Made by a program: the position numbers and the translations under genes. 64,000 bases of DNA from the NCBI GenBank assembly GCA_029555025.1, contig JAKPTZ010000030.1, forward strand, positions 1-64,000, read 5' to 3'. Below, piece after piece: positions 27,815 through 63,828 of this stretch (the stretch's first letter is position 1; each line of letters opens with the position of its first letter). The DNA comes from Deltaproteobacteria bacterium. Its GTDB lineage: Bacteria; Myxococcota_A; UBA9042; DTJE01. The notes under the pieces were generated by a model. The model saw nothing but the letters and a program-made list of their open reading frames with translations. It searched no databases and was not told the origin of the DNA.

Positions 27815-27847
27815 TGTCCGGTCAGGCTCTTGATTTTGAGGTGCAGC

Positions 27848-30800
27848 ATGAACCGGCCCGTCCTGTTGTTGGTTTCCTGCGTTTTTCTGCTTGTTGCGTG
27901 CGGTGGCGGGGGTGAGCCGGATTTTGATGTGCAGCAGCCTTTTGACGAGGGCGGCTTTCTTGATCAGCAGACCGGCGAGGATCAGTCCGGGACGGATACC
28001 CGGAACGACGTGATTCCGCCTGATTCCGGCAGCGATGGAGTCTCCGAGGTCGTTCAGCCGGATTCAGTCATCATCGATGACCTGGCTGGTGATTCGGCAG
28101 GCGAAACCGGGGGCGACACGATTCAGGATGTCGCCACCCCGTGCACGCGGGACGAGGAATGTGCCGACGACAACATCTGCACGACCGACGAATGCGGGGA
28201 AGACGGCGTTTGCCGGCATTTCTGCGTCTGCGAGGCCGAGTGCGGGACGGATGACGATTGCGCGGCCGAGACGTGCAAGGTCGCAAGCTGCAAGGTTGTT
28301 TCCGGCTCGGGCGACTGCGTGTCGGCGAAGTGTGAAGTCACGGATCTGGATTGCGACGATCAGGACCCCTGCACCACCGACTCCTGCAGCACCGCGACAG
28401 GCAAGTGCCGAAACGTCAGGATTCCGGGTTGCGGAGGCTGCAAGTCGGACACCGAATGCGTCGATACGTCCGAGTGCACCGTCGATTTCTGCGACATCAT
28501 CGCCGGTGAGTGCGTTTTCGCGCCGATTGACTGTGCCGACGGTGACGACTGCACCGCCGACTACTGCGTCGCCGGCTTCGGGTGCGTCAACGCCGTGACG
28601 TGCGCGTGTTCGGTGAATTCCCAGTGCGACGACAACAACGCATGCACCATTGATTCGTGCACCCCGGAAGGGGAATGTGTTTATGCGGGCGTATCCTGCG
28701 ACGACGGAATCGAGTGTACCCAGGATTCCTGCGATCGGCTGACTGGCTGCGTGAACGCGCCTGCTGGAGAGCTTTGCGAGTCTGTCGCCGAATGCAATGA
28801 CGACGACAATTGCACAATCGATTCCTGTTCGGCGAGCGGGTGCTGCGATCACAAGGAGATCAAGGATTGCAGGCGTTGCTTCTCGGACGCCGAATGCGAC
28901 GATGGAAACGACTGTACGCTGGATGGATGCAACACAGAAGTCTATTACTGTGTCCACATAGCCAGCACGGGCACGTGCAGCGACTCGAATCCCTGCACCA
29001 CCGGTGATCGCTGTCAGGATGGTGCGTGCATTCCCGGACGGTTGACCGACTGTGACGATGGTCAGCCCTGTACCGTTGATTACTGCGGGCTTGACGGCGC
29101 CTGTGTGAACCAGCCGATTCCGTTGTGTTCAGCGTGCCAGGGGCACGACGACTGTGATGACGGTTCATTGTGCACCGTCGATTCATGCGTCGAGGGGACA
29201 TGTCGGTTCGTCCGTTCAATCTGCGATGACGGCAACCTGTGTACCGACGATTTCTGCGATGCCTCGGTCGGTTGCGTTGCCAGGAACAATTCGGATCCGT
29301 GTGACGATGAAGATATCTGCACCGTGGATGACGTCTGCCTGGACGGCCAGTGTACCGGGGGATCCGGCCTTGCGCCGTGCGACGACGGCAACGAGTGCAC
29401 CCAGGACTGGTGCGACCCCGTGACCGGCTGCCAGGTGTCGCCGCTGGAAGGGCCTTGCGAGGACGGCGATCCCTGCACAACCGATGACTACTGCGTGCTT
29501 GGCGAGTGCGTGGCCGGTGCCGGCGGCTGCAACGATGACGACCTTTGCACGATCGACAAGTGCCGGGCCGGCGTGGGATGTGAATACCTGACGGTTGACT
29601 GCAACGACAGGAACAAGTGCACGACCGATTCATGCGATCCCCTGAAGGGATGCATCAATGCGCCGATAGTGTGCGACGACCAGGATGCCTGCACGGTTGA
29701 TTCATGCGTTCCATCATCCGGCGAGTGCCGGTTCGAGCGAATCGAAATCGACGATGACGATGCATGCACGGTAGATGAATGCGATCCGACCACAGGCGTC
29801 ATTCATAAGGTCAAGAATTGTCCGCACGACCCATGCTTCGCCGCATCGTGCGATCCCCGCACGGGCATGTGCAGCCAGGCACCGCTTGTATGCGACGACC
29901 AGAATCCCTGCACTGTCGATTCGTGTAATTCCGGAACCAGCACGTGCGTTTTCCAGGAAAAGGACTGCGCCGTAAGCAATAAGTGTGTCGAGGGTTTCTG
30001 CAATCCGAAGAATGGCAACTGCGAGACGGCGCCCAAGGATTGCGACGACGGCAATCAGTGCACGAACGATTCGTGCGATCCCGCCGTCGGCTGCCTGAAC
30101 CAGGCCAGGGATGGTGCCTGCGAGGACGGCGATTTCTGCACGGTGGGCGATACCTGCCAGGCGGGGGTGTGCAAGACCGGCAATCCAAGGGTTTGCGATT
30201 CCGACCAGTGCACCCAGGGTTTCTGCGATTCTTCCTATGGTTGCAGGTTCTCGCCAAGGAACGAGGGTCTTCCGTGCAGTGACGGAAGCATCTGCACGGC
30301 CGGCGACAAGTGTATCGGCGGCATCTGCATCGGCTCCCCGACCGTGAGCTGCGACGACGGGAATCCATGCACGACCGATTACTGCGATCCCAGGGAAGGC
30401 TGCGTTTCAACCAACAACAACAATTCATGCGACGACGGCCTGGATTGCACGAAGGGCGATGTCTGCAGGGCCGGTGCCTGCACCGGGACGCCTGTCGTCT
30501 GCGAACAGGACGGCAATCAGTGTACCGACAATGTCTGCGTGGAAGGGGCCGGTTGCACGAGTGTTGTTCTCGCCGGCCAGCCTTGCGATGACGGTCTTGG
30601 CTGCACCGAACCGGATACCTGCGACAACAACGCTGTCTGCGCCGGTCTTCCGAAGGTCTGCGTGTCGCCCAATACCTGCCTGGTCGGGGAATGCGTCGAG
30701 GGCCGTGATTGCGTGTTTGCAGTCCGGGATGACGGCAGTCCCTGCAGCGACGGCAACGCGTGCACATCGAACGACACGTGCTCCGGCGGCACATGCAAGA

Positions 30801-30997
30801 GCGGCGCGGCCGTCGATTGCCGCGACGGGCTGTCCTGCACCGAGGACCTGTGTGACCAGTCAACCGGATGCTATCAGCGCCTGCGCGAGAACTGCAGTTG
30901 TCGCGAGGACAATGAATGCGTGGTGAAGGGTTCGAAGACCTGTTGTGAGTACCGGTTTGGTGATTGGGGCCGCGAGTGTTACTACAACTGCGACTGA
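27848..30997 (+). CDS. Giant Cys-rich tandem-repeat lipoprotein
   Basis: Predicted surface lipoprotein of 1049 residues; function unknown. The signal peptide ends in a lipobox (FLLVAC near residue 18), followed by an Asp-rich tether of about 80 residues. The rest consists of roughly two dozen repeats of about 35-45 residues built on the pattern CDDGNxCTxDxC-x(4-8)-GxC. Such repeats occur in Myxococcota surface proteins. The very many cysteines suggest a rigid disulfide-rich, perhaps Ca-binding rod. The ATG at 27848 is chosen for its GAGGTG and for the lipoprotein signal. It converges with a related - strand gene after 13 bases. Confidence 0.85.
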   Translation: MNRPVLLLVSCVFLLVACGGGGEPDFDVQQPFDEGGFLDQQTGEDQSGTDTRNDVIPPDSGSDGVSEVVQPDSVIIDDLAGDSAGETGGDTIQDVATPCTRDEECADDNICTTDECGEDGVCRHFCVCEAECGTDDDCAAETCKVASCKVVSGSGDCVSAKCEVTDLDCDDQDPCTTDSCSTATGKCRNVRIPGCGGCKSDTECVDTSECTVDFCDIIAGECVFAPIDCADGDDCTADYCVAGFGCVNAVTCACSVNSQCDDNNACTIDSCTPEGECVYAGVSCDDGIECTQDSCDRLTGCVNAPAGELCESVAECNDDDNCTIDSCSASGCCDHKEIKDCRRCFSDAECDDGNDCTLDGCNTEVYYCVHIASTGTCSDSNPCTTGDRCQDGACIPGRLTDCDDGQPCTVDYCGLDGACVNQPIPLCSACQGHDDCDDGSLCTVDSCVEGTCRFVRSICDDGNLCTDDFCDASVGCVARNNSDPCDDEDICTVDDVCLDGQCTGGSGLAPCDDGNECTQDWCDPVTGCQVSPLEGPCEDGDPCTTDDYCVLGECVAGAGGCNDDDLCTIDKCRAGVGCEYLTVDCNDRNKCTTDSCDPLKGCINAPIVCDDQDACTVDSCVPSSGECRFERIEIDDDDACTVDECDPTTGVIHKVKNCPHDPCFAASCDPRTGMCSQAPLVCDDQNPCTVDSCNSGTSTCVFQEKDCAVSNKCVEGFCNPKNGNCETAPKDCDDGNQCTNDSCDPAVGCLNQARDGACEDGDFCTVGDTCQAGVCKTGNPRVCDSDQCTQGFCDSSYGCRFSPRNEGLPCSDGSICTAGDKCIGGICIGSPTVSCDDGNPCTTDYCDPREGCVSTNNNNSCDDGLDCTKGDVCRAGACTGTPVVCEQDGNQCTDNVCVEGAGCTSVVLAGQPCDDGLGCTEPDTCDNNAVCAGLPKVCVSPNTCLVGECVEGRDCVFAVRDDGSPCSDGNACTSNDTCSGGTCKSGAAVDCRDGLSCTEDLCDQSTGCYQRLRENCSCREDNECVVKGSKTCCEYRFGDWGRECYYNCD

Positions 30998-31010: not shown

Positions 31011-33689
31011 TCACCAGAATTTTACGGCCCATTCGGTAACACGGTAATTGCCGGAATCGGCAATCACCAGCCGGTAGTCGGCGCCATTCCCGATCACGTC
31101 GATGTCCGAAGGGTAGAAGAAGCTGCCGGTTCCGGAACCGAACGAGCCGAGTGTTCCGGTCGGCTTTCCGTAATCGTTGAAAAAGACCAGCCTGTGGTTG
31201 TAGGTGTCGGCAACGACCGCGCCACCGCCGGGGAGGGCAGCGATCCCGCCCGGACTGGCCAGGGCCAGTTCCTTGTCAGGTTTGATTACCTGATCAAGCA
31301 CGCCGTCGGCGGAAAAGACCTGGATTCTGTTGTTCTGCGTGTCGCATACCCAGACCCGGCCGTCCCGCCCGACGGTGATGGCCGAAGGCGTCCTGAATCG
31401 TCCCGGACTTGTTCCAAAGGCGCCGAAGGTGAACATGAGGACGCCAAGCCTGTTATGGACGCTGATCCTGTGATTTCCGGTGTCGGCAACATAGATGCGG
31501 TTTGAATCCGGCGAGACCGCGACGTCCCTCGGGGTGTCGAATTTTCCGGGATCCATGCCAGGCTTGCCGAACGAATACAGGAATACGCCGGCCGGGGTCA
31601 TCACCTGGATGCGGCCGTTGAGGTTGTCGGCAATCAGCACCCGACCCTCTGATGCGGCAATGCCGCGGGGAGACAGGAACTTGCCGGGAACCGTTCCGTA
31701 TCCGCCCAGCATGCGGATGAATTTTCCTGAACCGTCAAAGACCTGCACATAATGGGTCCTGGAGTCTGCAACCAGGAACTGGAAGCCGTCGCCGTCAGGA
31801 CCGGGAACCGTCGCCACATCGGTCGGCGAGTTGAACTGGCCGGATTGCGACCCCGGTTCGCCGAACTGGCCGACCTGTATCCAGGTTCTTGAGAAATCGC
31901 ATCGCGATTCACGGCAGAAACCGTTGATTCCCGCCGATCTGCAGTGGTAATCGGCCAGGCACGCCGGTGCCAGGCATGTCGCGGTCACCGCCGGGTTGTC
32001 CAGATAGACGCCGCGACCGTCGTTGGATACATTGTCGTAGGTGTCGAACATGAACTCGAACATGACCTGCCGTCCGGAATACCCTGAAATGTCGATCGAA
32101 ACCTGCGTTGTCGTCTCTCCGGGGATTTGCGCCGATTGATCCCACAGAAGCGATCGGGCCCGTCCAAGCGAGGTGTCCGCGATGATCCACACCTGAAGCT
32201 CGTCGTATCCGCCGATCGGGTCAACATCCATCCACAGGTCGAAGGACAGCTTCAGCGAGCTTGCGGCCGGCAGCATGACGGGCGGCGATGTTATCGAACC
32301 CGAAGCCTGGTAGCCTGTTCCGTATCCGCTCTCGTCCTCGTTGCCGAAATAGAAGGATGGCGCCTCGATGCCCGGAATGTCCGTCAGCAGACCTTCGCGC
32401 CATCCGGCCTCGGGCGCATCGTTGTCAACGCTCCAGCCGCCGCCGAGACCCGCGGAAAGGTCGTCACTCCATGTGTCCGGCCGACAGCAGCCTGTCTGGC
32501 CAAGCGCGCCAGTCCTGCACTGGTGGTTGACGTCGCAGATTGGCCGCACGCATGCCGGTGTTTCGGGGCAGTCCGCGATGGAAAGGCAGCAGCCTTCCGT
32601 TCTCTTTATTCCGGTCGTGCAGTTCCCGGTTGAAACGTCGCATATTCCAGGTTCGCAGGGTCCCGCGGCAGGGCATTGGGAATCGTCGGTGCACGCCGAA
32701 CATCCCTGGATTCGGTCGTGGCGGCAGCCGCCCTGATAACAGTAGTCCGTGGTGCACCAGTCGTTATCGTCGCAGTCGGCGGGAGTTCCGGAACACCTTC
32801 CCTCGATGCATCGGTCGTCGGTCGTGCAACCGTTCTGATCGGCGCATGTGCCGCTGATCGGCTCGTGGATGCATCCCGTCAACTGGGTGCAGTAATCGAG
32901 CGTGCAGATGTTGCCGTCATTGCAGTCGGCCGGCTTTCCCGGTCTGCATGAGCCCTGGCTGCACATGTCGTCCTTCGTGCACTGGTTGTTGTCGTCGCAG
33001 GCGATGTCGCTGGCCGGGTGGTGATTGCACTCACCGGCCGAGCAGTAATCAATCGTGCACATGTTGTCGTCGGCGCAGTCCTTTCGAACCCCCTCGACGC
33101 AGCGGCCGGCTTCGCAGCGGTCGCCCTCGGTGCACGGGTCATAGTCGAAGCATTCCATGATGATGGTGAATCCGGCACCGTTGTCCGAACACCTGTAAAG
33201 CGTGTCCTGATGGCAGAAATTGGCGCCGGGACTGCAAAGGTGCTGCCGACAGGTTCCGTCGTCGCACCATGCCGTCAGGCCGCAATGTCGATCCTGGGTG
33301 CATTCCAGACATTCCAGGGTTTCCGGGTCGCAGATCGAGTTCGGGCAGTGCGCGCAGGGATCGAAGGCGTCGGTTACGTCCAGGTCGCCAGACGATTCAT
33401 CGCCGGAATCCACGGTGTCAGCATCGTGACCGGTCATGGTGTCTTCACCGGTGTCGCCGCCGTTGCCGTCGTCGCCGTCGATGCCGATATCTCTCTCCAG
33501 GTCGGATTCGATGTCCCGGTCGGCGTCCGGCCCGATCCGGTCTTCCCCGACGTCCACGCCGGAATCAGGAATAAGCACCTCGGCCGCATCGTATTCGCCG
33601 TCGGTTCCCGTCGTCGCATCAGATACACGTTCCTGAACGCAGCCGACCGAAACCGCAATCAGCACAATGTATGGAATCCAGGGTTTCAT
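31011..33689 (-). CDS. Lipoprotein with Cys-rich repeats and C-terminal NHL beta-propeller
   Basis: Predicted surface lipoprotein of 892 residues, function unknown. The lipobox (AVSVGC near residue 17) is followed by an Asp/Glu-rich tether, then CDDxNxCTxDxC-type repeats as in its convergent neighbour. A beta-sandwich-like region follows (about 400-540, with GQVMFEFMFDTYDN-like sequence), then about six NHL repeats of the form SPRGIA...VLIADNLNGRIQV to the C-terminus. The ATG at 33689 is preferred over the TTG just before it. Confidence 0.84.
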   Translation of the reverse strand: MKPWIPYIVLIAVSVGCVQERVSDATTGTDGEYDAAEVLIPDSGVDVGEDRIGPDADRDIESDLERDIGIDGDDGNGGDTGEDTMTGHDADTVDSGDESSGDLDVTDAFDPCAHCPNSICDPETLECLECTQDRHCGLTAWCDDGTCRQHLCSPGANFCHQDTLYRCSDNGAGFTIIMECFDYDPCTEGDRCEAGRCVEGVRKDCADDNMCTIDYCSAGECNHHPASDIACDDNNQCTKDDMCSQGSCRPGKPADCNDGNICTLDYCTQLTGCIHEPISGTCADQNGCTTDDRCIEGRCSGTPADCDDNDWCTTDYCYQGGCRHDRIQGCSACTDDSQCPAAGPCEPGICDVSTGNCTTGIKRTEGCCLSIADCPETPACVRPICDVNHQCRTGALGQTGCCRPDTWSDDLSAGLGGGWSVDNDAPEAGWREGLLTDIPGIEAPSFYFGNEDESGYGTGYQASGSITSPPVMLPAASSLKLSFDLWMDVDPIGGYDELQVWIIADTSLGRARSLLWDQSAQIPGETTTQVSIDISGYSGRQVMFEFMFDTYDNVSNDGRGVYLDNPAVTATCLAPACLADYHCRSAGINGFCRESRCDFSRTWIQVGQFGEPGSQSGQFNSPTDVATVPGPDGDGFQFLVADSRTHYVQVFDGSGKFIRMLGGYGTVPGKFLSPRGIAASEGRVLIADNLNGRIQVMTPAGVFLYSFGKPGMDPGKFDTPRDVAVSPDSNRIYVADTGNHRISVHNRLGVLMFTFGAFGTSPGRFRTPSAITVGRDGRVWVCDTQNNRIQVFSADGVLDQVIKPDKELALASPGGIAALPGGGAVVADTYNHRLVFFNDYGKPTGTLGSFGSGTGSFFYPSDIDVIGNGADYRLVIADSGNYRVTEWAVKFW

Positions 33690-33730
33690 CAATGTTCCGC
33701 CGGCGCAGCGGCCGGAAAACGTTCAGGGAT

Positions 33731-36607: not shown

Positions 36608-37381
36608 TCAATAGACCGGGCAGAAGGTGGGGTATTCGGCGATTGCCGGGCAGATGACTGCCGGAACGCCGTAGTCCTGTCCCGGGAAGCAAGGCGGATC
36701 GGTGATCGTGTCGTCGGCCGACGGTCTTACCAGGCATCCGAAGCAGACCTTGATCGGGAACGCCAGTTCGTTCGAATAGATGATTTCGCCCGCCTGGTTC
36801 TCTGCCATGAGCATGACATACACGTTGATGTCGGCACCGTATTCCTCGCCCGCGTGAGTCCTCATGACCTCGCCGATCAGGTTGCCCAGCTCCGTCTTGA
36901 TTACCTCGACGCCGACCGTTCCTTCCTGTTCAGGTTCGGCCCCGGCCGCGACCGTGTGCTGGACGCCGTCGGTTGAGAGGATGAAAAGCTGTTCTTCGGT
37001 CATCCGGCCCGTGGCCTGAAGTTCGTCACCGAGCTGCCCAAGGTCGATCCATACCTTGGCGCCACTGATGTTCAGGTAGTTCGTTTCCACATTGCCGGAT
37101 TCGATCCCTTCCCCGCTGATGGTGGTGCTTTTCATCATCATGTTGCGGAATCGCGGGAACAGGAAGTAGTTGTTGGTCAGCATCGAATCCAGGATGCCGA
37201 ACGCCAGTACCGCCTGGGCCCGCTGGCCGGGCTGGATGATGCACTGCGAACGCGGCGTGATGGCCTGGGCATCATAGATGAACAGGGCCCGCGGGTTCGG
37301 CACCTCGCACGTTACGAGCAGGGGCAGGGACGCTGCCAGTACGCCGACAGCAAGCAGTCTGCCGAAAATGGACTTCTTCAT
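36608..37381 (-). CDS. Predicted lipoprotein, translationally coupled to pilQ
   Basis: A 257-residue protein of no recognised family. The signal peptide ends LPLLVTC at about residue 25, a plausible lipobox, followed by a mature beta-rich domain and a C-terminus with several cysteines (VCFGC, PPC, VIC, FC). Its ATG overlaps the pilQ stop by four bases with GAGAGGTG upstream. The operon place suggests a pilus-secretin accessory lipoprotein in the manner of PilP or a pilotin, but no sequence match to either is visible. Confidence 0.8.
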   Translation of the reverse strand: MKKSIFGRLLAVGVLAASLPLLVTCEVPNPRALFIYDAQAITPRSQCIIQPGQRAQAVLAFGILDSMLTNNYFLFPRFRNMMMKSTTISGEGIESGNVETNYLNISGAKVWIDLGQLGDELQATGRMTEEQLFILSTDGVQHTVAAGAEPEQEGTVGVEVIKTELGNLIGEVMRTHAGEEYGADINVYVMLMAENQAGEIIYSNELAFPIKVCFGCLVRPSADDTITDPPCFPGQDYGVPAVICPAIAEYPTFCPVY

Positions 37382-40300
37382 AAGGACACCTCTCTGTTCA
37401 CGACCTTCGGGGTTATGAAGATGAGCAGTTCTGACCGGTCGTCAGAACGGTTACGGGACTTGAACAGCCAGCCCAGGACGGGGATGTCGCCAAGGAACGG
37501 TATTTTCTTGAACGACTTACCCGTGCTACGCGTATAGATACCGCCGATGACGGTCGTGTCGCCGTCCCGGATCAGCAGTTCCGTGTGGGCTTCCTTCTTC
37601 TGGATGGTCGGGTTGCCGTTGGCGGCAAGGTTACCGAAGTCGGGTTCGTTCTTGCTGATGTCGAGCTTGAGATTGATGTGTCCGTCACGCGTTACGTGCG
37701 GCTCGACATCCAGCTTCAGGTCGGCCGAGAAGAACTGCGTGTTGACGCCCGCCGCCGAAACGACGCTGATCGGGATCTGGACGCCCTGGCTGATCGATGC
37801 CTTGCGGTTGTCCAGGGTCGAGATTCGGGGCGAACTGATGATCTTCACATCGCCCGTTTCTTCCGCGGCCGACAGGCGCAGCGTCAGGTTGCCGATTCCG
37901 CCGATCGAACCCAGCTGGATGCCGATGGCACCGCCGGACCCGGTGCCGACGGCCGCCGGGAGGTTGACCGCCCAGTTCGGGTTGTCAAGCGTCAGGCCGC
38001 CGCTGGGGTCGGCAGGAGTCGCGCCGCCGGCCAGACCGAGGCTGGACGGGAACACAAGGCCGGTTTCGTTTCCATAGGCGGAATTCATCGCGAAATTGCC
38101 GCCCCACTGGATGCCGATGTCTTCACTGAAGGTGGTCCTTGCCTCGACGATTCTTGCTTCGATCAGGATCTGCGGGGTCTGCTGATCAAGCCTCTTGACC
38201 AGGTCTTCAGCCGCCTGCAGGTAGTCTTCGGTGTCCTTGATGACCAGCGTGTTGGTTCTTTCATCGACCGAAACGGAGCCCTTGTCGGAAAGGACATCCT
38301 TCAGCCTGGTCGCCATTTCCTGACCGCGGCCGTAGTTGACCGGGACAAGCCTGACGACGACCGGCTTCAGTTCGCGCTGCTTCTTGGCCTTTTCGACCTT
38401 GGCTTCGTATTCCTTCTGGATCGATTCGGCAGATGCCACCCGGAAGATGCCCTGCTCGACGACGTAATCCATTCCCTTTGCCTTGAGCACGGTATCGAGC
38501 GCCAGATCCCACGGCACGTCTTCAAGGTGGAAGGTGACCTTGCCCTTGACTTCTTCGGATGTGACGATGTTGACCTTGCCTTCACGGGCAAGGAACGTCA
38601 GCACGTTCTGCATGTCGGCGTCCTTGACCGTAAGGTTGATGCGCTTGCCCTGGTACTTCTTCTTCTTCGGAACCATCGACGGGCGCAGGTATCCCTGGGG
38701 CTGCGCCGAAGGATCCTCGGCCATTTCCGGGCTTGATGACGGTGCGGCCGGGGCCGGTGGCGGCGTTGCCTGGGCAACGGTTCGTCCGACGCGGGGAACC
38801 GGCTGGGACGACGCAAACATGTCGGCCGGTGCCGGTCCCGAGAAGGTCCACACCAGCTTGCCGTCGCGCCTGGCGATTTCCTGTCCGACCTGGCCCGAAA
38901 GTTCGGCGACAATCTGGATTGTTCCGTTTTCCGTGGCGAAAGAGCTGACCATGTTGACAGGGGTCTTGAACGCCGTCACATCAAGGCGCCTGGCCAGTTC
39001 CTTCGGAAGGCTGGCGCCGGAAACCGTAAGGACATAGGCGCCATCACGGGACGAAACCGAATAGTCGGCCGAGCCGTCAAGCGTCAGAATCACGCTCGGC
39101 ACCGAACCGATCTTCTTGAAATCAATAGCCTTGACCGAAGCGACTCCGGTCGCTGCGCGGCCGGCCGCCTTCGCCTTCGCCAGTTCGGCGTTCAGGCGAT
39201 CTATTTCGGCCTGGGCCGCAGCGTTGGCCTGTCTGGCCGTGCGGTTCTCTGCCTCCCGCGCCTGCGCCAGTTCCGCAGTCAGGCGGTCAATCTGTTCCGA
39301 AAGTTCCCTGCGTCCGCTTTCCGCCGCGCTGTCCAGCGCCGTGCGGGCCGCAGCGAGTTCGGAATTGAGCCTTTCGACTTCCTTCTGCTTCTGGGCCAGC
39401 CTGTCTTCGGAAGAACCGGCGACAGCAGTCAGCTCGGCAATTCTGGCCTGTGCGGCCTGCTCGCGAGCCACGGCTTCCCTTTCGCGCCGCTCGGCAGCGG
39501 ACATCATGTCGCGTGCCTCGCGCAGGGAAGCGGCCGCCGTCGCGACCTGCCTGTCCTTTGCGGCTCCAGACGCCTTCGCGCGGTTGACGCGCTTCAATTC
39601 GGCCTCACGTTCCGCGACCAGCTTGCTCAGGCGCGAAACCTCCGCCTTTTCCTGGCGTGACGACACTTGCTGGAGCTGGGCAAGTTCCGAGGTCAGCGAC
39701 GATATCTTCTGCTCCTTAAGGGCGATCTCCCTGCGGGCCTGATCCGCGTCTTCCTGGGCGGATGCAACCTGGCGGCTGAGATCACGGATGGTTTGTTCCT
39801 GCTTGCGGTTCGTTTCCCGCACATCGGCCAGGGCCCCTTCATATTTCTCGCGCAGTTTACGAACCTCGGCCTCGCTCTGGGCCAGCGCCTTGCTGCGGCC
39901 TTCTTCCTCGGCCGCCTTTTTCGCGGCAATCATGGCGGCGCGCAGGGATTCCAGTTCCTTTTCCCTTGCGGCCATGCGGGCTTCGGCCTGGCCTCTTTCA
40001 CGTGCGAGCGTCGCTTCGGCGTTTCTGGCCGTCTTCTCTGCCTCGACCCTCGCCGCCTGAAGTTCCTTTTCCTTTGCCTGGAATTTCGCAATCGCCTGCT
40101 TCTGCGATTCCGTAAGCCGTCCATCGGACGCAGCCGCGGCCGCCCGGGCCTTTTCCGCCGCGTCGCGGAGTTCCCTTATCTCCCTCTCCCTGGATGACAG
40201 CGCCGCGGTCGCGGCCGCCTTTTCCGCCTCGAGCTTCTGCTGAAGCGTCCTGCGCTGTCCTTCAAGGCCTGCCTTCAGATCGCTGATTTCCTTTTCCTTG

Positions 40301-41610
40301 GCGGCAAGCCGGATTGTTGCCGCGTCTGCCACCTCGCCGGCCTTCTCAACCCTGGCCCGCAGTTCCTTCAGTTCGGATTCGCGCGATTCCATCTGCTCGC
40401 GCAGTTTCCTCGCCTCGGCCGTCTCGACCGCCTTGCGGGCGGACTTCAGGTTATCGACTTCGGCGCGGAGAGCCGCCACTTCCTGCTCAGCCGCCTCGCG
40501 TCGCTGGGCAATCGCCCTCAGCCGCAGTTCTTCGGTCTTCAGGCGGCCTGTCGCCTCGCTCCAGGCCTTCGATGCCTCCTGGCTGTCCCTGGTCAGCTTC
40601 TCAAGCTTCTGCTTTTCGGCGACCACGCTTGCCTGAAGCCTTTCGGCCTCCCTGGCAAGGTCGGATGCCTTGGTGGCCTCGGTTCTGGCCAGGTCGATCT
40701 TTGTCCTGAGGGCCGCAATTTCCTTTTCGCCCGAAGCCTTCTCAGCCCGGGCCTTTTCCAGCCTGGCCTCAATTTCCGACACCTTGGCGCTTACGTTCTG
40801 ATTGCGGGCCTGCGCCAGTTGCGCGACCAGCTTCTCCTCGTTTTCCCGGCTCCTGCGCAGATCATCAAGCTTCGCGGCCTCGAGCCTGGCCAGTTCGGTA
40901 AGCTGGCCCCTGGTCTTTTCCTCGGCAATCCGAGCCTTCCTGGTCTCCTCGAGCCTGGTCTTTTCCTCCGCGGCGAGTCTGCCCGCTTCCCGGGCCTCCA
41001 CCTCGGCGGCCTTCTTGAGTTCCTCGGCCTTCGCCCTCAGGCGCTCGGCCTCAAGGCGACTCTGTTCCTCGGTCAGGCGCAGCTTGGAATCGCGTTCGCG
41101 AGTCTCGCGAATCTTTTCAAGCAGTTCCTTCTCGCGCGCCAGTTCCGCCCGGATTTTATCGACCTGCTCCGCCAGAACCTTGCCGTCTTCCTGCGAAGGT
41201 CGGCGACCGGCACCGTCGATGCGTATCACAATCCCGCGGTCAATCGCCTTGATGTCGTATGCGGCGCTTTGCCTCAGGCCGAGGATGATTCGGCCCACCG
41301 GTGTCCCGTTGCTCTTGATTTGCATCGTCGCGACCCGGTCAAGAACACCGTTGTCAACCATGACACCGTCAGCCACCTTGCTGATGTCGCCCTGCGGGAC
41401 ATCGACGAAAAGGCGAACCGGCTCCTCCAGCTTGAAGACGCTGAAGGTCGGAGTCCTTTCCGCAGCGATGGTTATGACGGTCTCCTCGGGCTCCTCCCTG
41501 ACGGTTATCCCGGAAATCCGGTTGGCATCGTCAGGCGTGGCGGTTGCCACCCCCGATATCAGAATAAAAGCTGTGGCCGACAGCAGCCCTGTAAGTTTCG
41601 CGCTTGACAT
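37378..41610 (-). CDS. pilQ: Type IV pilus secretin PilQ with giant coiled-coil insertion
   Basis: Outer-membrane channel through which the type IV pilus passes. From the ATG at 41610 (GGTGGAGG upstream) it is 1410 residues against about 700-900 in typical PilQ. In order: signal peptide (1-25); AMIN domain (about 32-133); predicted coiled coil (about 145-820) rich in Glu, Ala, Arg, Lys and Leu; second AMIN domain (about 826-925); Pro-rich linker; STN domain (about 985-1060); secretin N domain (about 1085-1145); and the secretin pore domain ending GDIPVLGWLFKSRNRSDDRSELLIFITPKVV-like sequence. AMIN domains bind peptidoglycan. pilM-N-O-P are not upstream. Confidence 0.92.
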   Translation of the reverse strand: MSSAKLTGLLSATAFILISGVATATPDDANRISGITVREEPEETVITIAAERTPTFSVFKLEEPVRLFVDVPQGDISKVADGVMVDNGVLDRVATMQIKSNGTPVGRIILGLRQSAAYDIKAIDRGIVIRIDGAGRRPSQEDGKVLAEQVDKIRAELAREKELLEKIRETRERDSKLRLTEEQSRLEAERLRAKAEELKKAAEVEAREAGRLAAEEKTRLEETRKARIAEEKTRGQLTELARLEAAKLDDLRRSRENEEKLVAQLAQARNQNVSAKVSEIEARLEKARAEKASGEKEIAALRTKIDLARTEATKASDLAREAERLQASVVAEKQKLEKLTRDSQEASKAWSEATGRLKTEELRLRAIAQRREAAEQEVAALRAEVDNLKSARKAVETAEARKLREQMESRESELKELRARVEKAGEVADAATIRLAAKEKEISDLKAGLEGQRRTLQQKLEAEKAAATAALSSREREIRELRDAAEKARAAAAASDGRLTESQKQAIAKFQAKEKELQAARVEAEKTARNAEATLARERGQAEARMAAREKELESLRAAMIAAKKAAEEEGRSKALAQSEAEVRKLREKYEGALADVRETNRKQEQTIRDLSRQVASAQEDADQARREIALKEQKISSLTSELAQLQQVSSRQEKAEVSRLSKLVAEREAELKRVNRAKASGAAKDRQVATAAASLREARDMMSAAERREREAVAREQAAQARIAELTAVAGSSEDRLAQKQKEVERLNSELAAARTALDSAAESGRRELSEQIDRLTAELAQAREAENRTARQANAAAQAEIDRLNAELAKAKAAGRAATGVASVKAIDFKKIGSVPSVILTLDGSADYSVSSRDGAYVLTVSGASLPKELARRLDVTAFKTPVNMVSSFATENGTIQIVAELSGQVGQEIARRDGKLVWTFSGPAPADMFASSQPVPRVGRTVAQATPPPAPAAPSSSPEMAEDPSAQPQGYLRPSMVPKKKKYQGKRINLTVKDADMQNVLTFLAREGKVNIVTSEEVKGKVTFHLEDVPWDLALDTVLKAKGMDYVVEQGIFRVASAESIQKEYEAKVEKAKKQRELKPVVVRLVPVNYGRGQEMATRLKDVLSDKGSVSVDERTNTLVIKDTEDYLQAAEDLVKRLDQQTPQILIEARIVEARTTFSEDIGIQWGGNFAMNSAYGNETGLVFPSSLGLAGGATPADPSGGLTLDNPNWAVNLPAAVGTGSGGAIGIQLGSIGGIGNLTLRLSAAEETGDVKIISSPRISTLDNRKASISQGVQIPISVVSAAGVNTQFFSADLKLDVEPHVTRDGHINLKLDISKNEPDFGNLAANGNPTIQKKEAHTELLIRDGDTTVIGGIYTRSTGKSFKKIPFLGDIPVLGWLFKSRNRSDDRSELLIFITPKVVNREVSL

Positions 41611-41648
41611 CGCGACCTCCACCTGAAAAGGCAAACAGTTCCGTTGAA

Positions 41649-57462: not shown

Positions 57463-57879
57463 TCACCCTTCGTTCGCGTCCCGCACCCCGGAACCCGCGC
57501 CGTCGTCGCCCTGTCCGGCCGGTTCCCCGGCGACCTGGTTGCAGAACGGGTCAACAAGATTTCCGTCGCAGTCGATGAAGTCGGTCACGCACCTGTAATC
57601 GTCACGGCAATAATCGAAAATGCTGCACGACTGCATGCACCAGGACGACAGACGGTCGAACCTGACGCAGACCGAGCCACCCGGGCACCCGGCCCTGGGA
57701 CACGGCGATATGGTGCAGTAACCGCCGGTCTGAGACAGGTCGCATACGTGGTTGCTGTCGCAATCGGTGCTGGATTCGCAGGCATCGCCGATGGACGGGG
57801 TACACCCTGTCGCCGCCAGGATTGATGAAGCGACCGCCAAAAGAATTATTGGAATCGATGAAGATGCGGGTCTTTTCAT
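57463..57879 (-). CDS. Small Cys-rich lipoprotein
   Basis: A 138-residue predicted lipoprotein with lipobox LAATGC near residue 26. The mature part has about 14 cysteines in the pattern GDACESSTDCDSNHVC ... GYC ... CPGGSVCVRF ... WCMQSCS, a style frequent in Myxococcota lipoproteins, and a Gly/Asp-rich tail. Its ATG overlaps the preceding stop by one base (TAATG). Function unknown. Confidence 0.82.
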   Translation of the reverse strand: MKRPASSSIPIILLAVASSILAATGCTPSIGDACESSTDCDSNHVCDLSQTGGYCTISPCPRAGCPGGSVCVRFDRLSSWCMQSCSIFDYCRDDYRCVTDFIDCDGNLVDPFCNQVAGEPAGQGDDGAGSGVRDANEG

Positions 57880-59315
57880 TAGGAACGGCCTTCCCCGGCG
57901 GCTTTTGCGCCCGGATCTTCCGGGTCACCGCTTTCCTGGTGGTTCAATCCCAGCAGGCTCTTGACCTGCACGAATTTCTTCCTGATGTCGTCAAGTTCGG
58001 CCCGGACCAGGCGTTCGGCGCTCTTCGCGGTCTCAAGCTGGGCCCGCAGCGAGGCGGCTTCCTTCTCGATGTCCTGGAGTTCTTCCACCCGATCCTGCAT
58101 GCGGTCGAGCGTCCTTTGAAGTTTCCGGTTTTCCGCCGAAAGAACCTCGTTCTTTGCAGCGGCTTCCTGCAGGGCCGGGAATTCCCTGGCCATCGATTCA
58201 AACCTGGAAACCTGTTCCCTCAGATCCTGAACGGTGTCTTCCGTTTCGGAAAGTCTCTCTTGAAGGGAATCGCGTTCTTCTTCCAGGGCTTCGATATTTT
58301 CCTTGTAACCGGTCTCGAGTCTTCCAAAAAGCTCCAGGGTTTCGTCCATGTCGGCACGGACGGCGGCTTCCCGACTTTCCGCGTCGGCCCTGCGCTCGGC
58401 CTCGCGGCGCCTTGTGTCCTCAAGCTGTTTTTCCAGCTTGGCTATCTGTTTTCTCTGGCTGGCCGTCTCATCCGCGGCTTCCTTCAGCGCCTCGATCCTG
58501 GACAGGGCATCCTGGAGCTCGTTTTCCAGTTTCAAGCGGGCCTTTTCGGCGACCGCCTCGGCTTGCAGGTTCGCCTTGGAAACCGCCTCCTGTACCGCCT
58601 CGTCTATAAGCCGGTTCATGTCCTGCAGAGCGGACGTGTCGCTCTGTGCGGTGCGCTTGAGGACTTCCTGGTGTTCGCGCATCGCTAGGATGCTTGAGTT
58701 CAAGGTTTCGGACTGGTTACGCAGAAGGGATTCAAGATCCCCGAGCTTGCCGTTGAGATCCTGCTTTTCTGTTTGCAGTTTGACGACCGTTGATTTCAGG
58801 TCCCTGACCTCGTCCTCGACAAAATTGACGACGGCGGCCTCGATTGTCCGGGCGGACACCATCGTGCGATCCGGTATGTCGTTGACGTCGATTTCGGCAG
58901 GTGGTTCAAATCCCGTCGTGACAGGCTGAGCCTGCTGCACCGGAAGCGCGGGAATCTGTTCCCGAAGGATTTCCGTCAGCATGACGGTCGAAAGGGGCGT
59001 GGAAAGATACACGTCGGCCCTTGTCGGCAGCCGCTGGTGCTTGTTGATGACGTCCGCGGCCGTCTTGCCCGAAATCATGAACAGCGGAATCCGGCGAAGC
59101 GTCTTGTCCTTCTTGATTTTCAGGCACGCGCTGAAGCCATGCTTCATGTCGGCGGAAAGAATGATCAGATCCGGCTTGTGCTCGGCTGCGTGTTCAAGGA
59201 TTGCGGCCGGATTGGTGTCGATTACCGGCACCAGCCCGAGCGATGTCAGGACCGATTGAATCTGATTCAGGGTAGTCTGATCGTCTTCGTAAATCAGAAC
59301 CTTTCTGTCGTTCAT
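57879..59315 (-). CDS. AglZ/FrzS-like pseudo-receiver coiled-coil protein
   Basis: A 478-residue cytoplasmic protein: a receiver-like domain (about 5-120), a linker, and a long coiled coil (about 165-455). The receiver has the acidic pair E10/D11, but the phospho-acceptor position (54) is Ser and the conserved lysine (near 106) is Thr, so it should not be phosphorylated. The segment GFSACLKIKKD and the HQRLPTRADVYL stretch resemble Myxococcus AglZ and FrzS, polarity proteins of gliding and pilus-driven motility. The ATG at 59315 has AGGA upstream. Confidence 0.82.
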   Translation of the reverse strand: MNDRKVLIYEDDQTTLNQIQSVLTSLGLVPVIDTNPAAILEHAAEHKPDLIILSADMKHGFSACLKIKKDKTLRRIPLFMISGKTAADVINKHQRLPTRADVYLSTPLSTVMLTEILREQIPALPVQQAQPVTTGFEPPAEIDVNDIPDRTMVSARTIEAAVVNFVEDEVRDLKSTVVKLQTEKQDLNGKLGDLESLLRNQSETLNSSILAMREHQEVLKRTAQSDTSALQDMNRLIDEAVQEAVSKANLQAEAVAEKARLKLENELQDALSRIEALKEAADETASQRKQIAKLEKQLEDTRRREAERRADAESREAAVRADMDETLELFGRLETGYKENIEALEEERDSLQERLSETEDTVQDLREQVSRFESMAREFPALQEAAAKNEVLSAENRKLQRTLDRMQDRVEELQDIEKEAASLRAQLETAKSAERLVRAELDDIRKKFVQVKSLLGLNHQESGDPEDPGAKAAGEGRS

Positions 59316-59531: not shown

Positions 59532-60500
59532 TCATGCCCGATCCCGACCCGGCGTGGCCCCGGCAGCCGCCCGAGTGGCGAATCTGATGGCGGCAAGCAT
59601 GCTCGACGGGTCTGCCCTGCCGGATCCGGCAAGGTCGAAGGCCGGCCCGTGGTCGCAGGCGCACCTGACTCGCTCGAGTCCCATGGTGATGTTGATGGCG
59701 TCCGAAAAGTGAATCAGCTTGAGTGGTCCGAGTCCCTGATCATGGAACATCGCCAGAACCACATCGAACTCGCCGGAAAGGGCGCGGTGAAAAACCGTGT
59801 CCGCGGCAAGCGGTCCGGTTGCGGAAATGCCTTCGTTTCGGGCCGTCTGGATCGCCGGGGCGATGATTTCGATATCCTCGCGTCCGAACATTCCCCCGTC
59901 CCCGCAGTGCGGATTAAGGCCGGCAACCGCAATCGAAGGGTTCTTGAGGCCCATATGACTTTTCATGAACCTGTCGCAAACCCTGAGCTTTCGAAGCACC
60001 AGGTCGGCAGTGATTGCATCCGGAAGTTCCCGGATCGAAACGTGCGTGGTTGCCAGTGCCACCTTCAACCGGGAACCGCACAGCATCATCGCCCATTCGG
60101 TGCATCCGAACCGGGACGCAACGAATTCCGTCTGTCCCGGAAATGGAAGTCCGGCGTCCGCGAAGGCCTGCTTGCATATCGGGCCGGTTGCCAGGGCGCC
60201 GATGGAACCATCGACAAGGCAGTCGGTCGCCGCCGTCAGAGCAGCCAGGCTGGCGGAGCCGGAAGCAGTCGTGTAGCGACCGGCATGGACTTCCCGCACG
60301 TCCGGCGAAGTGGCCACCGGAAGAATCCGGCCAGCGTCGGGCAGCCCGGAGACTATCTGGCCGATGATCGGCGCGGGACCGAAAAGCATGAACGATGTCT
60401 GCGCCCGTGGTTCGGCGGCGGTCAGCGTGGCCAGCGCGCGGCCGACAATTTCGGGCCCGATGCCGGCAGGGTCGCCGACGGTGATTCCGACTGTTTTCAT
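59532..60500 (-). CDS. pdxA: 4-hydroxythreonine-4-phosphate dehydrogenase
   Basis: NAD-dependent step of pyridoxal phosphate synthesis by the DXP-dependent route. The 322-residue product has GDPAGIGPEI near the N-terminus, the metal-binding HVSIRELPDAIT and GLNPHCGDGGMFG segments, HDQGLGPLKL, and DHGPAFDLAGSGRADPSS. The ATG at 60500 follows GGGGGTG and overlaps the upstream stop by four bases. pdxJ, the usual partner, is not in the window. Confidence 0.96.
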   Translation of the reverse strand: MKTVGITVGDPAGIGPEIVGRALATLTAAEPRAQTSFMLFGPAPIIGQIVSGLPDAGRILPVATSPDVREVHAGRYTTASGSASLAALTAATDCLVDGSIGALATGPICKQAFADAGLPFPGQTEFVASRFGCTEWAMMLCGSRLKVALATTHVSIRELPDAITADLVLRKLRVCDRFMKSHMGLKNPSIAVAGLNPHCGDGGMFGREDIEIIAPAIQTARNEGISATGPLAADTVFHRALSGEFDVVLAMFHDQGLGPLKLIHFSDAINITMGLERVRCACDHGPAFDLAGSGRADPSSMLAAIRFATRAAAGATPGRDRA

Positions 60501-62962
60501 GGCCGCACCCCCGTGGCACCGCAATCGGCGACGCCGGCAGCGGATTCAAGCACTGGCAGGCCCGAAAGCACCGCACCCTCTGCCGAGAAGGTTCCGGAAA
60601 ACATGCTGAAGCCCTTTTCAAGGCTGACCGGCGCTCCTGGCTCCGGACTGAATTCCGATGACCTGGCCGCAGAGACGACCCATTCGGGATCCTCGCCCGG
60701 AATATCGATCCTGATCACGGAAATGCCTTCCGAACCCGGTATGGCCGTCAACTCCGGCATGATTCCGCCCGATGGCGCGAACGCGAGCACCGTCAGGAAC
60801 CCGGCGTTTTCGGGCGGCATCGACGCGTTCACTGCAAGGCGGCGGTGCGTCAGCCACTGGCCCCACTGTGGGGCGTTGTGTTCCTCGAGGCTTGATGACA
60901 CCGAAACGATTCCGGAAAGCGGAACCGTCATGGCCCGAACCGCCACGCCCTGGTTCGTCCAGATCGCGCCGTCGTCAAGCTCCTGGAAGGACGAGTCCGG
61001 CGTGGTGCCGCCCCCTTTGCCGTTCAGAAGCAGCGTGTATGCGTGTTCCTGGCTTGCCCGTATCACGTCGTGAACAACCAGGTAGTCGCTTCGAACCCGC
61101 AGAATCTGGCGATGGAAATCGACGCCTTCGTAGGCGGTGGAGACGGCCGTCCACGTCAAGTCACCCTGGGAACCGGGGCACGAAAGGAACGCGTCGTTGC
61201 CCACGTTCAGGCCCATCTCCGACATGCTGTCGAACCGGGAACCCTTCCCATCGACCAGGATCGTGTTGTGGTCGGTCGGCCTGAACACCAGGGAATGGTT
61301 TTCGTAGTTGATATACCCGGGATCGATTATCAGCGGCTTGCCGTGTGCCCAGGCGATGAAAGCAAGTTCATCCGGGTGTTCGTGCCCGAGTCCGTTGACC
61401 CGAACCGGGCCGTGTTCGCCACACAGGAGGATGTAGAGCGCGTCCGGCTCCCAGGATGTACGCAGGATTGATATTCCGGCCCCGTACCGGGTGAAGTCAA
61501 GGGGAGCTTCCGGCTGCAACGGTGGCGCCAAACCATTGAAGGCGACCAGGGAAAGGGCATGCAGCGGCGCCGAGTCAAGCCCGGCCGCGTCGCGGTGCCA
61601 CTGCCACAGGAAGTCGTCGTCGCCAAGCATCGTGGCCAGGATGGCTCCGTGCTGGGCGGCACCGTTTGAATCATCGACCGATGGGCAGAGTCCGTCGGGC
61701 GTAACCGTTTCCAGCGACAGGCGATAGGCCGCCCTGACGGCCGGGGACGTCGCGAAGTCCTGCACTTCGATGATCTGTCCTGCCGCCGGGTTGTCGGGCT
61801 GGGTCTCGCCGACCACCCTGGCCGGGATCGATTTTCCATCCGCCCACCGATGGAGCCCGAAGAAGAACGGAAGGTATGTGTCCGAGCCGTAGGTCAGGTA
61901 ATGGCAGCCTTCCGCGTGTCCGCCGTCGGGCGTGAGCTGGTTCTCGACGAAAACCCACTGGATACCGGTCAGGGAGTGAGACATGTCCCGGGCCGCCTCG
62001 CGGCGATCGTTTAACGCCATCGCGCACAGGCCGAGCGACGAAAGGACTTTTATGACGTGATTGTTGCGCGCGAAAAGCATCATTGGAAGCAGGGGGCCTT
62101 CCTGGACAAGCCGCCTGAAGTCGTCGATTCTTGTGACGATTGATTCCCTGACGGCGATAAGTTCCGGTTCGCCAATCATCGGATTTCCGGCAAGCCAGTC
62201 CCATGCCTGGCAGTATGAAGCAAGCGCCTCGGCACCAAGAAGGTCGTAGTCCGAATCCATCGCAAGGTCGGCAGCACCAGGATCGCGATAGCCTTCGGTC
62301 ACGGCTGAAACAGCCTTGTCAAGCATCGCCTGGTCGGCTTCAAGCAGGGCGAGGAATGCCGCATTCTCGGCAACCTGGCCGCGGGATCGATCGACATGAA
62401 GGTCAAAGGAATCGTCCGGGTGCTCGACAAGGGGCCTGCCCGCCGCCGCCCTTATCCGGGCCGCCAGCACCGCGTCCGGTCCCTCGGTTGCCGCGAGCTT
62501 CGCGGCGATGGCCGGGATTTCGTCGCTGTCGAAGAACAGCCGGGGATGCGGCCCGAGTCCCGGCTGCCACGCCCTTGCGTCCGAGGGATCCAGCGGGTCG
62601 GTTCCGTCGGAAATTTCATCAAGATCCGGAATTCCGTCCCCATCGGAGTCGGCCTCCGGATCGATTACATCCGCATCGACCGAAGAGTCGCCGCCGGTCT
62701 CGTCCGGCAGGAAGCCGTCATCGGTCGGGACATCGGCCCCGTCGCCATCCGCGGCGATGTCCGCCTGGCCCGAGTCGGGAAGGTCGCCGGTGGAATCGGA
62801 TTCCGGCAGATCGGCGGAGTCGGGCGCCGCGTCCGTAATGACCGTCCCTTGATCCAGGGCGTCCTGCGTCACGTCGCCGAACGACTGGCAGGCGGAAGAC
62901 AGAAAAGCGAGGATGACGCAAATGGCGGCGGGGTGCTTCAACATCATTTGAACGGCTTGCAT
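60497..62962 (-). CDS. Heparinase II/III-like polysaccharide lyase lipoprotein
   Basis: Predicted surface polysaccharide-degrading enzyme of about 821 residues. The signal peptide ends FLSSAC, a lipobox, followed by an Asp/Ser-rich tether and a Ca-binding thrombospondin-type segment (DSDGDGIPDLDE). An alpha-toroid region then leads into a heparinase II/III beta domain with HEHPDELAFIAW, IIDPGYINYENH and DHNTILVDGKG. The start is uncertain: a -10 at 63007-63012 rules out frame codons further upstream, leaving 62962 or 62947, neither with a clear ribosome-binding site. Substrate unknown. Confidence 0.8.
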   Translation of the reverse strand: MQAVQMMLKHPAAICVILAFLSSACQSFGDVTQDALDQGTVITDAAPDSADLPESDSTGDLPDSGQADIAADGDGADVPTDDGFLPDETGGDSSVDADVIDPEADSDGDGIPDLDEISDGTDPLDPSDARAWQPGLGPHPRLFFDSDEIPAIAAKLAATEGPDAVLAARIRAAAGRPLVEHPDDSFDLHVDRSRGQVAENAAFLALLEADQAMLDKAVSAVTEGYRDPGAADLAMDSDYDLLGAEALASYCQAWDWLAGNPMIGEPELIAVRESIVTRIDDFRRLVQEGPLLPMMLFARNNHVIKVLSSLGLCAMALNDRREAARDMSHSLTGIQWVFVENQLTPDGGHAEGCHYLTYGSDTYLPFFFGLHRWADGKSIPARVVGETQPDNPAAGQIIEVQDFATSPAVRAAYRLSLETVTPDGLCPSVDDSNGAAQHGAILATMLGDDDFLWQWHRDAAGLDSAPLHALSLVAFNGLAPPLQPEAPLDFTRYGAGISILRTSWEPDALYILLCGEHGPVRVNGLGHEHPDELAFIAWAHGKPLIIDPGYINYENHSLVFRPTDHNTILVDGKGSRFDSMSEMGLNVGNDAFLSCPGSQGDLTWTAVSTAYEGVDFHRQILRVRSDYLVVHDVIRASQEHAYTLLLNGKGGGTTPDSSFQELDDGAIWTNQGVAVRAMTVPLSGIVSVSSSLEEHNAPQWGQWLTHRRLAVNASMPPENAGFLTVLAFAPSGGIMPELTAIPGSEGISVIRIDIPGEDPEWVVSAARSSEFSPEPGAPVSLEKGFSMFSGTFSAEGAVLSGLPVLESAAGVADCGATGVRP

Positions 62963-63006
62963 TGCGGCTTTTGTCCAGTTGTTGATGACGACGGAACCAA
63001 ACATCT

Positions 63007-63012
63007 TATATA
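63007..63012 (-). promoter_or_regulatory. Possible -10 shared by the divergent lyase and etfB genes
   Basis: TATATA is a palindromic AT-rich hexamer between the divergent genes. On the + strand TTGATG at 62982-62987 lies at a usable distance from the overlapping TTATAT (18 bases). No good -35 was seen for the minus strand. Confidence 0.3.
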
Positions 63013-63072
63013 TTCTTCCGCTGGAGTTTAGAATCGATTTTTCCGGCAGGGCACAAAACAGCAGGAGGCAAC

Positions 63073-63828
63073 GTGAAGATACTTGTAACAGCAAAGCGCG
63101 TCACTGATCCGGATGCGCGCATCAAGGTACTTCCCGATGGGACCGGCATCGAGACGGCAGGCCTGGAATACAAACTGAATCCGTTCTGCGAGAACGCCAT
63201 CGAGGAAGCGGTGGCCATCAGGGAGAAGACGGGTGCAGAGGTGATCGCGGTGACCATCGGCGACGAGGAGGCGGTCAAGAGTCTTCGAACCGCGCTGGCA
63301 ATGGGCGCGGATCGTGGCGTGCACGTCAAGGCCGGCGATTTTGAGCTCGATTCCGATCTGGCCGCCCGGATACTTGCGGCGGTCTTTGCGAAGGAAGGCT
63401 GTGACCTTTTCATCCTTGGAAAGCAGGCCGTAGATGGCGATTCAAACCAGGTCGGGCAGCTTGTCGCCGAGTATGCCGGCGTTCCCCAGGCCTGTTTTGC
63501 ATCCAGGGTCGTGATTGGTTCCGATGGCGCGGTGGTGTCGAGGGAAGTCGATGGAGGCATGGAAACCGTCGAAGTGAAGTTCCCCGCGGTCATCACCGCG
63601 GATCTGCGCCTGAACGAGCCCCGCCTGCCGAAACTTCCGGACGTCCTGAAGGCGAAGAAGAAGCAGGTCGATGAGTACGCCCCGGCCGATCTTGGCGTCG
63701 ATATGTCGATGAAGGTCGAGACGGTGGGTTACAGCGCTCCTGCCGGAAGGGCCGGTGGGCGTCGCGTTGGAAGCGTCGCGGAACTGGTCGATCTTCTCAG
63801 GAACGAGGCGAAGGTTCTGAAGGCTTGA
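63073..63828 (+). CDS. etfB: Electron transfer flavoprotein subunit beta
   Basis: Beta subunit of the heterodimeric ETF, which passes electrons from acyl-CoA dehydrogenases to the quinone pool. The 251-residue product from a GTG start (AGGAGG upstream) begins MKILVTAKRVTDPDARIKV and has the IEEAVAIREKTGAEV and AVDGDSNQVGQLVAEYAG segments. The ETF-beta signature region lies near LRLNEPRLPKLPDVLKAKKK. It is followed by etfA. Confidence 0.96.
   Translation: MKILVTAKRVTDPDARIKVLPDGTGIETAGLEYKLNPFCENAIEEAVAIREKTGAEVIAVTIGDEEAVKSLRTALAMGADRGVHVKAGDFELDSDLAARILAAVFAKEGCDLFILGKQAVDGDSNQVGQLVAEYAGVPQACFASRVVIGSDGAVVSREVDGGMETVEVKFPAVITADLRLNEPRLPKLPDVLKAKKKQVDEYAPADLGVDMSMKVETVGYSAPAGRAGGRRVGSVAELVDLLRNEAKVLKA

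Follow-up and report, generated by a model that had tools for sequence, protein, structure and literature searches.

Within the 64,000-nucleotide stretch of DNA analysed here (the window), whose host is a Myxococcota MAG, we identified a gene for a FrzS-type pseudo-receiver protein (P0001) that may serve as a docking adaptor operating without phosphorylation or MglA, probably on type IV pili; taken as a whole, with the client that we infer, this reading has in our estimate a probability of about 0.5. Its architectural part, a phosphorylation-independent docking head carried on a coiled-coil rod, is very probable. That the client process is most likely the building or positioning of type IVa pili is put forward tentatively, by analogy.

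The pseudo-receiver head and its probable rod

The minus-strand open reading frame (Table 1) begins with an ATG at 59315, stops with TAA at 57879-57881 and encodes 478 amino acids. It is not a chance frame, because all 14 family/order genomes (13 from its own family, 1 from elsewhere in the order) have homologues. The family profile matched once and at full length in every one of the 13, and gave two incomplete pieces in the order member. A wider scan of contigs gave 12 loci of this protein family, all in records assigned to Myxococcota, Myxococcales, Deltaproteobacteria, Oligoflexales or Anaeromyxobacter.

Table 1. Features of the P0001 gene, its product and the adjoining gene in the window
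Feature	Position	Strand	Basis
Pseudo-receiver/coiled-coil gene P0001	57879..59315	(-)	478 aa; homologues in 14/14 family/order genomes
Pseudo-receiver domain, residues 4-120	58956..59306	(-)	Pfam; phmmer and Foldseek top match FrzS
S54 codon, phospho-acceptor position (FrzS A53, CheY D57)	59154..59156	(-)	Alignment
D56 codon (FrzS D55), invariant in 14/14 family members	59148..59150	(-)	Alignment
H93 codon, equivalent of FrzS His92	59037..59039	(-)	Alignment; FrzS His92 role from PMC1974792
Y103 codon, equivalent of FrzS Tyr102	59007..59009	(-)	Alignment; FrzS Tyr102 role from PMC1974792
T106 codon, conserved-Lys position (CheY-Lys109)	58998..59000	(-)	Lys in 12/14 family members
Low-confidence linker, residues 121-154	58854..58955	(-)	AlphaFold2: residues 121-160 with pLDDT block means of 40-53
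Long helix 1 (residues 155-222), probably a coiled coil	58650..58853	(-)	AlphaFold2; periodicity
Long helix 2 (residues 234-455), probably a coiled coil	57951..58616	(-)	AlphaFold2; periodicity
Residues 329-338, LFGRLETGYK, matching the family motif (L)FxRLExGYK	58302..58331	(-)	Family alignment
Downstream Cys-rich lipoprotein gene	57463..57879	(-)	Start overlaps pseudo-receiver stop by 1 base

The head was recognised by the Pfam Response_reg profile on residues 6-116 (31.5 bits, cut-off 30.2). The AlphaFold2 model, built with 13 aligned sequences, predicts a receiver fold with pLDDT block means of 93-96 over residues 11-110; its pTM is only 0.32, so that the mutual arrangement of the parts of the protein is not fixed by the model. 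The sequence-only reading had described a receiver lacking the phosphorylatable Asp (D54S) and the conserved Lys (K106T), and alignment with FrzS confirmed Ser and Thr at these positions. Asp occurs at the acceptor position in none of the 14 family members, which carry Ser (10), Cys (3) or Asn (1), and together with the modelled fold this loss agrees with the FrzS/AglZ type. The Lys to Thr change was rejected as a family-defining trait, being of genus level only: Thr was found in P0001 and its one congener.

The pair H93/Y103, which corresponds to His92/Tyr102 on α4/β5 of FrzS, is invariant in all 14 family members. The FrzS study (PMC1974792) reports that S-motility and leading-pole localisation are both lost when either His92 or Tyr102, residues of the output face, is mutated, that Asp55 is dispensable, and that AglZ carries the same pair. 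His was present at the FrzS-92 position in 14/14 family members, 11/11 class-level relatives and 30/30 loci retrieved with FrzS as query, and in 0/25 of the other receivers of the same genome, of which 24/25 keep the acceptor Asp; as the first three sets were themselves retrieved for their resemblance to P0001 or FrzS, this contrast marks membership of one group and is no independent test.

Most switch residues survive in the family, the acceptor excepted, as seen from the conservation of the shifted Asp56 (14/14), of Asp at the second acidic-pair position (12/14; E10/D11 in P0001), of Thr or Ser at the position of CheY-Thr87 (13/14) and of Lys at position 106 (12/14). The receiver could then be phosphorylated on Asp56 and act as an unorthodox but real response regulator, which we regard as improbable, since FrzS tolerates the equivalent D55A substitution without a phenotype and does not bind Mg or its BeF3 complex (PMC1974792). 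Moreover, the Lys is lost in the genus of P0001 itself, and among the class-level relatives the acceptor Asp is missing in 11/11 and the Asp at the shifted position also in 7/11.

The long coiled coil proposed to follow the receiver held up as a prediction, as two long helices were predicted and both showed a hydrophobic period of about 3.5 residues that was equally strong in 5/1000 and 2/1000 shuffles; helices and period together mark P0001 as having a probable long C-terminal coiled coil. Residues 234-325 taken alone had an unremarkable period, with 102/1000 shuffles as strong. The first helix begins in a conserved stretch (consensus DRTLVSxGxLExAVVxYVEEEVR in the family alignment). The second helix, of 222 residues, is near in length to the FrzS coil, reported as 235 residues (PMC4546325), both being of moderate length, and in this respect the FrzS-style coil of the sequence-only reading is supported.

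Within the second helix lies the motif FxRLExGYK, in which F330, L333, E334, G336, Y337 and K338 are invariant in 14/14 family members. A profile of the motif segment, which includes rows from the family/order genes and from the relatives of a second family (f9), was searched over 52 genomes of the class and matched the family gene in 14/14 family/order genomes and the relative gene in 3/4 f9 genomes, the fourth gene being cut by the contig end; the only further matches were a second, weak one in the family gene of G013 (2.2e-4) and one in G021 (0.03). The motif was absent from all 18 FrzS/AglZ-like frames that were read. These came from 20 regions after exclusion of L172, L175 and L178, which had no frame with the receiver signature; L173 contributes two frames, and two others (L174 and L052) belong to the class of P0001. 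The related pseudo-receivers of the f9 loci L023, L025, L028 and L030 have Ala or Tyr in place of the acceptor Asp; in three of them (L023, L025 and L028) the gene also encodes the coil motif of P0001, and its neighbours differ. Strict conservation of so short a segment, in a coil that otherwise varies, suggests a putative binding site, and these nine residues mark a place to look for the partner of the P0001 family.

Relationship to FrzS and AglZ

The kinship of the head with the AglZ/FrzS type was borne out by sequence, signature residues and tree. The FrzS pseudo-receiver (2gkg) was the top PDB sequence match of P0001 (phmmer, E 8.7e-11), above PleD and DivK, and also the top Foldseek match (E 1.7e-10, rmsd 1.6 Å), the two receivers being 30% identical. 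In VIA-align, FrzS (Z 18.9) and DivK (Z 18.1) were tied within 1 Z as fold matches, and the structural match alone was rejected as proof of FrzS kinship. As the fold is indecisive by itself, kinship rests on signature residues, profile hits and the tree. A search of a viral fold library with P0001 returned ordinary receivers only, at low E-values.

The tree comprised 79 receivers, namely 14 of the family, 11 of the class, 30 from FrzS-query loci, FrzS itself and 23 from the genome of P0001, from which L128 and L129 were left out; the canonical set was thus drawn from one genome. It was built from 124 columns and leaves many forks unresolved, and in it a branch with support of 100/99 parts the pseudo-receivers from the 23 own-genome receivers. 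The P0001 family, together with nine class-level rows (91/81), forms the sister of the FrzS/AglZ-like rows including FrzS (88/85), and a topology holding the family with FrzS proper was marginally rejected (AU p 0.043). The family was therefore not found nested with FrzS inside the FrzS/AglZ-like group, as an orthologue would be, the rejection being marginal. The phylogeny that the sequence-only reading had called for thus sets the head apart from canonical receivers, and places it beside the FrzS/AglZ-like group rather than inside. When the family profile was run over 377 Myxococcota genomes, FrzS/AglZ-like frames were among the strongest matches outside the order, and many of the matches there fell at the same places as FrzS-query matches.

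Compared with FrzS of M. xanthus (PDB 2gkg/2i6f), P0001 shares a pseudo-receiver head without the acceptor Asp and with the His/Tyr pair, but its b3-a3 loop is three residues shorter, it keeps E10/D11 where FrzS has S10, it bears its own coil motif, it branches beside the FrzS-like group and its genome is without MglA. The head with the His/Tyr pair is likewise common to AglZ of M. xanthus and the long AglZ/FrzS-like proteins of Myxococcota (30/30 loci), which differ from P0001 in length (768-1055 residues in 15/18 frames against 478), in lacking the motif and in the MglA carried by their genomes outside the class. With canonical receivers of the DivK, PleD and PhoB type the receiver fold is shared, but these carry the acceptor Asp. 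A pseudo-receiver of the same kind as the P0001 head is encoded at locus L033 (1498-2355) of the class genome G016. The domain behind it looks RidA-like from its letters, in which case such heads would be used with other outputs as well.

MglA, MglB and the type IVa pilus genes

The sequence-only reading had seen a hint of a polarity or motility circuit, and for one of the AglZ/FrzS kind this was not supported, as the 14 closest genomes have no convincing MglA and the genome of P0001 has no credible MglB, so that the known circuit lacks its core. MglA was not found at E<=1e-3 in 13/14 family/order genomes, the sole match being in G007 (1.5e-4, residues 114-189 only), and at E<=1e-15 it was found in 0/14. 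Across the 377 Myxococcota genomes the latter threshold detected MglA in 298, comprising 296/325 outside the class and 2/52 inside. Of the Arf matches in the genome of P0001, L004 was rejected as MglA since Pfam identifies it as Obg, and L003 is presumably IF-2, judging from its N-terminus, hence not MglA. The search for MglB, confined to this one genome, gave a single Roadblock match, which scored below the hmmscan cut-off and fell within a TGA-interrupted frame of an ABC transporter, and hence no credible Roadblock GAP of the MglB kind.

The FrzS receiver matched 89/377 Myxococcota genomes at 1e-13, of which 88 lie outside the class. MglA is present in every one of these 88, and the FrzS receiver matched 0/29 of the genomes outside the class that are without it (Fisher p 1e-4, a value that ignores genome kinship). 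G016 is the only class genome with a FrzS-receiver match and also has the strongest MglA of the class (7e-43). Among the 23 class genomes with a family-profile match at 1e-20, 21 are without MglA at 1e-15. As every genome outside the class with a FrzS-receiver match also has MglA, a FrzS-type gene without MglA is an oddity of this lineage. In M. xanthus the recruitment of FrzS is described as partly MglA-dependent and FrzS as acting in the MglA/SgmX pathway (PMC11580455). An earlier report of FrzS-type proteins in MglA-less genomes was not found in the literature consulted, which was mostly non-subscription.

Since the family/order genomes are draft MAGs (68 to 97.6% complete), P0001 might be a true FrzS whose MglA was missed, but we hold this to be very improbable. 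MglA is missing in all 14 at the stricter threshold against its presence in nine tenths of the genomes outside the class (296/325), the topology test speaks, marginally, against a grouping of the family with FrzS proper, and the candidates in the own genome were an Obg, a presumable IF-2 and a sub-threshold Roadblock match in a transporter frame.

Motility genes are present in the genome, namely a type IVa pilus cluster on contig C144, encoding PilB (765 bits, cut-off 676), PilT (470 bits, cut-off 319) and a PilC-like protein (538 bits, under its cut-off of 700), and PilQ in the window (1418 aa, 37378-41634 (-), 419 bits against a cut-off of 284). In this PilQ, residues 837-916 form an AMIN domain and the core of the family starts near residue 996, and the roughly 830 N-terminal residues are without a Pfam match. 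Its presence in the window had been taken as a hint of function; PilQ is indeed there, but as an argument this is weak, as it lies 16 kb away and the nearer neighbours are housekeeping genes. It was absent from 20 loci of relatives, whose flanks reach at most about 10 kb per side against the 16 kb here, so that this absence carries no weight. PilT-family ATPases were present in 52/52 class genomes with no co-variation with the P0001 family, and because of this universality pili alone do not point to P0001. The PilB of the same genome (L228, 6842-8698 (+)) has a match to the MshE-type c-di-GMP-binding motif of 37.1 of 38 bits, just under the cut-off, and from its sequence an MglA-free control of pilus extension through such a PilB is possible.

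Neighbouring genes and the proposed role

The lipoprotein gene is the immediate neighbour of the pseudo-receiver gene in 14/14 family/order genomes, and the order pseudo-receiver, Cys-rich lipoprotein, RsfS and ComF holds throughout the family wherever the contig is long enough to show it, with the order-level genome G013 retaining the first two. The neighbours of P0001 (lipoprotein, RsfS, ComF and PdxA) are housekeeping genes, with no motility gene and none hinting at function among them. The lipoprotein has no Pfam or NCBIfam match. Elsewhere in the window, Dicty_CTDC Cys-rich repeats occur in a convergent pair of large genes, one at 27830-30997 (+) with 11 such stretches (E 3.2e-82) and the other at 31011-33692 (-) with NHL repeats as well, and a gene at 60497-63094 (-) encodes an Asp-rich N-terminus followed by a Heparinase II/III C-terminal domain and a stretch of TSP3 repeats.

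The conserved adjacency, with a one-base overlap here, would fit a scaffold of the same build that serves a different process at the pole, in division or in the envelope, possibly together with the lipoprotein. A coil motif that differs from FrzS/AglZ fits a different partner, and the lack of co-variation with PilT also favours such a client. However, the lipoprotein was found in 49/52 class genomes, with one match in most, does not lie beside such a gene at 16 loci outside the family and order, and is located outside the cytoplasm, so that the pairing may be mere shared transcription; it was accordingly down-weighted as an obligate partner. On balance a non-pilus client is conceivable but rather doubtful.

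The reading that we prefer, an MglA-free docking head on a rod, is proposed by analogy with FrzS, from which placement, client and process are drawn. The helices would dimerise into a rod which, perhaps through FxRLExGYK, would fix the protein at a pole or at a machine of the envelope, the FrzS coil being reportedly sufficient for polar localisation (PMC11580455). The head would offer a constitutively competent face around H93/Y103 and recruit its client much as the FrzS head recruits SgmX, and the site of pilus assembly or placing would be set by something other than MglA/MglB.

More speculatively, a whole order of Myxococcota may use a FrzS-type pseudo-receiver rod uncoupled from the MglA/MglB GTPase to control type IVa pili or some other machine at the pole. 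This could be either the ancestral, GTPase-free form of the FrzS pathway or a rewired one in which FxRLExGYK has taken the place of MglA as the localisation cue. A conserved FrzS-type protein without MglA amounts to a natural knock-out of the switch, in which the role of the head alone becomes testable, and the lineage that carries it makes it testable whether the GTPase was added to the circuit or lost from it.
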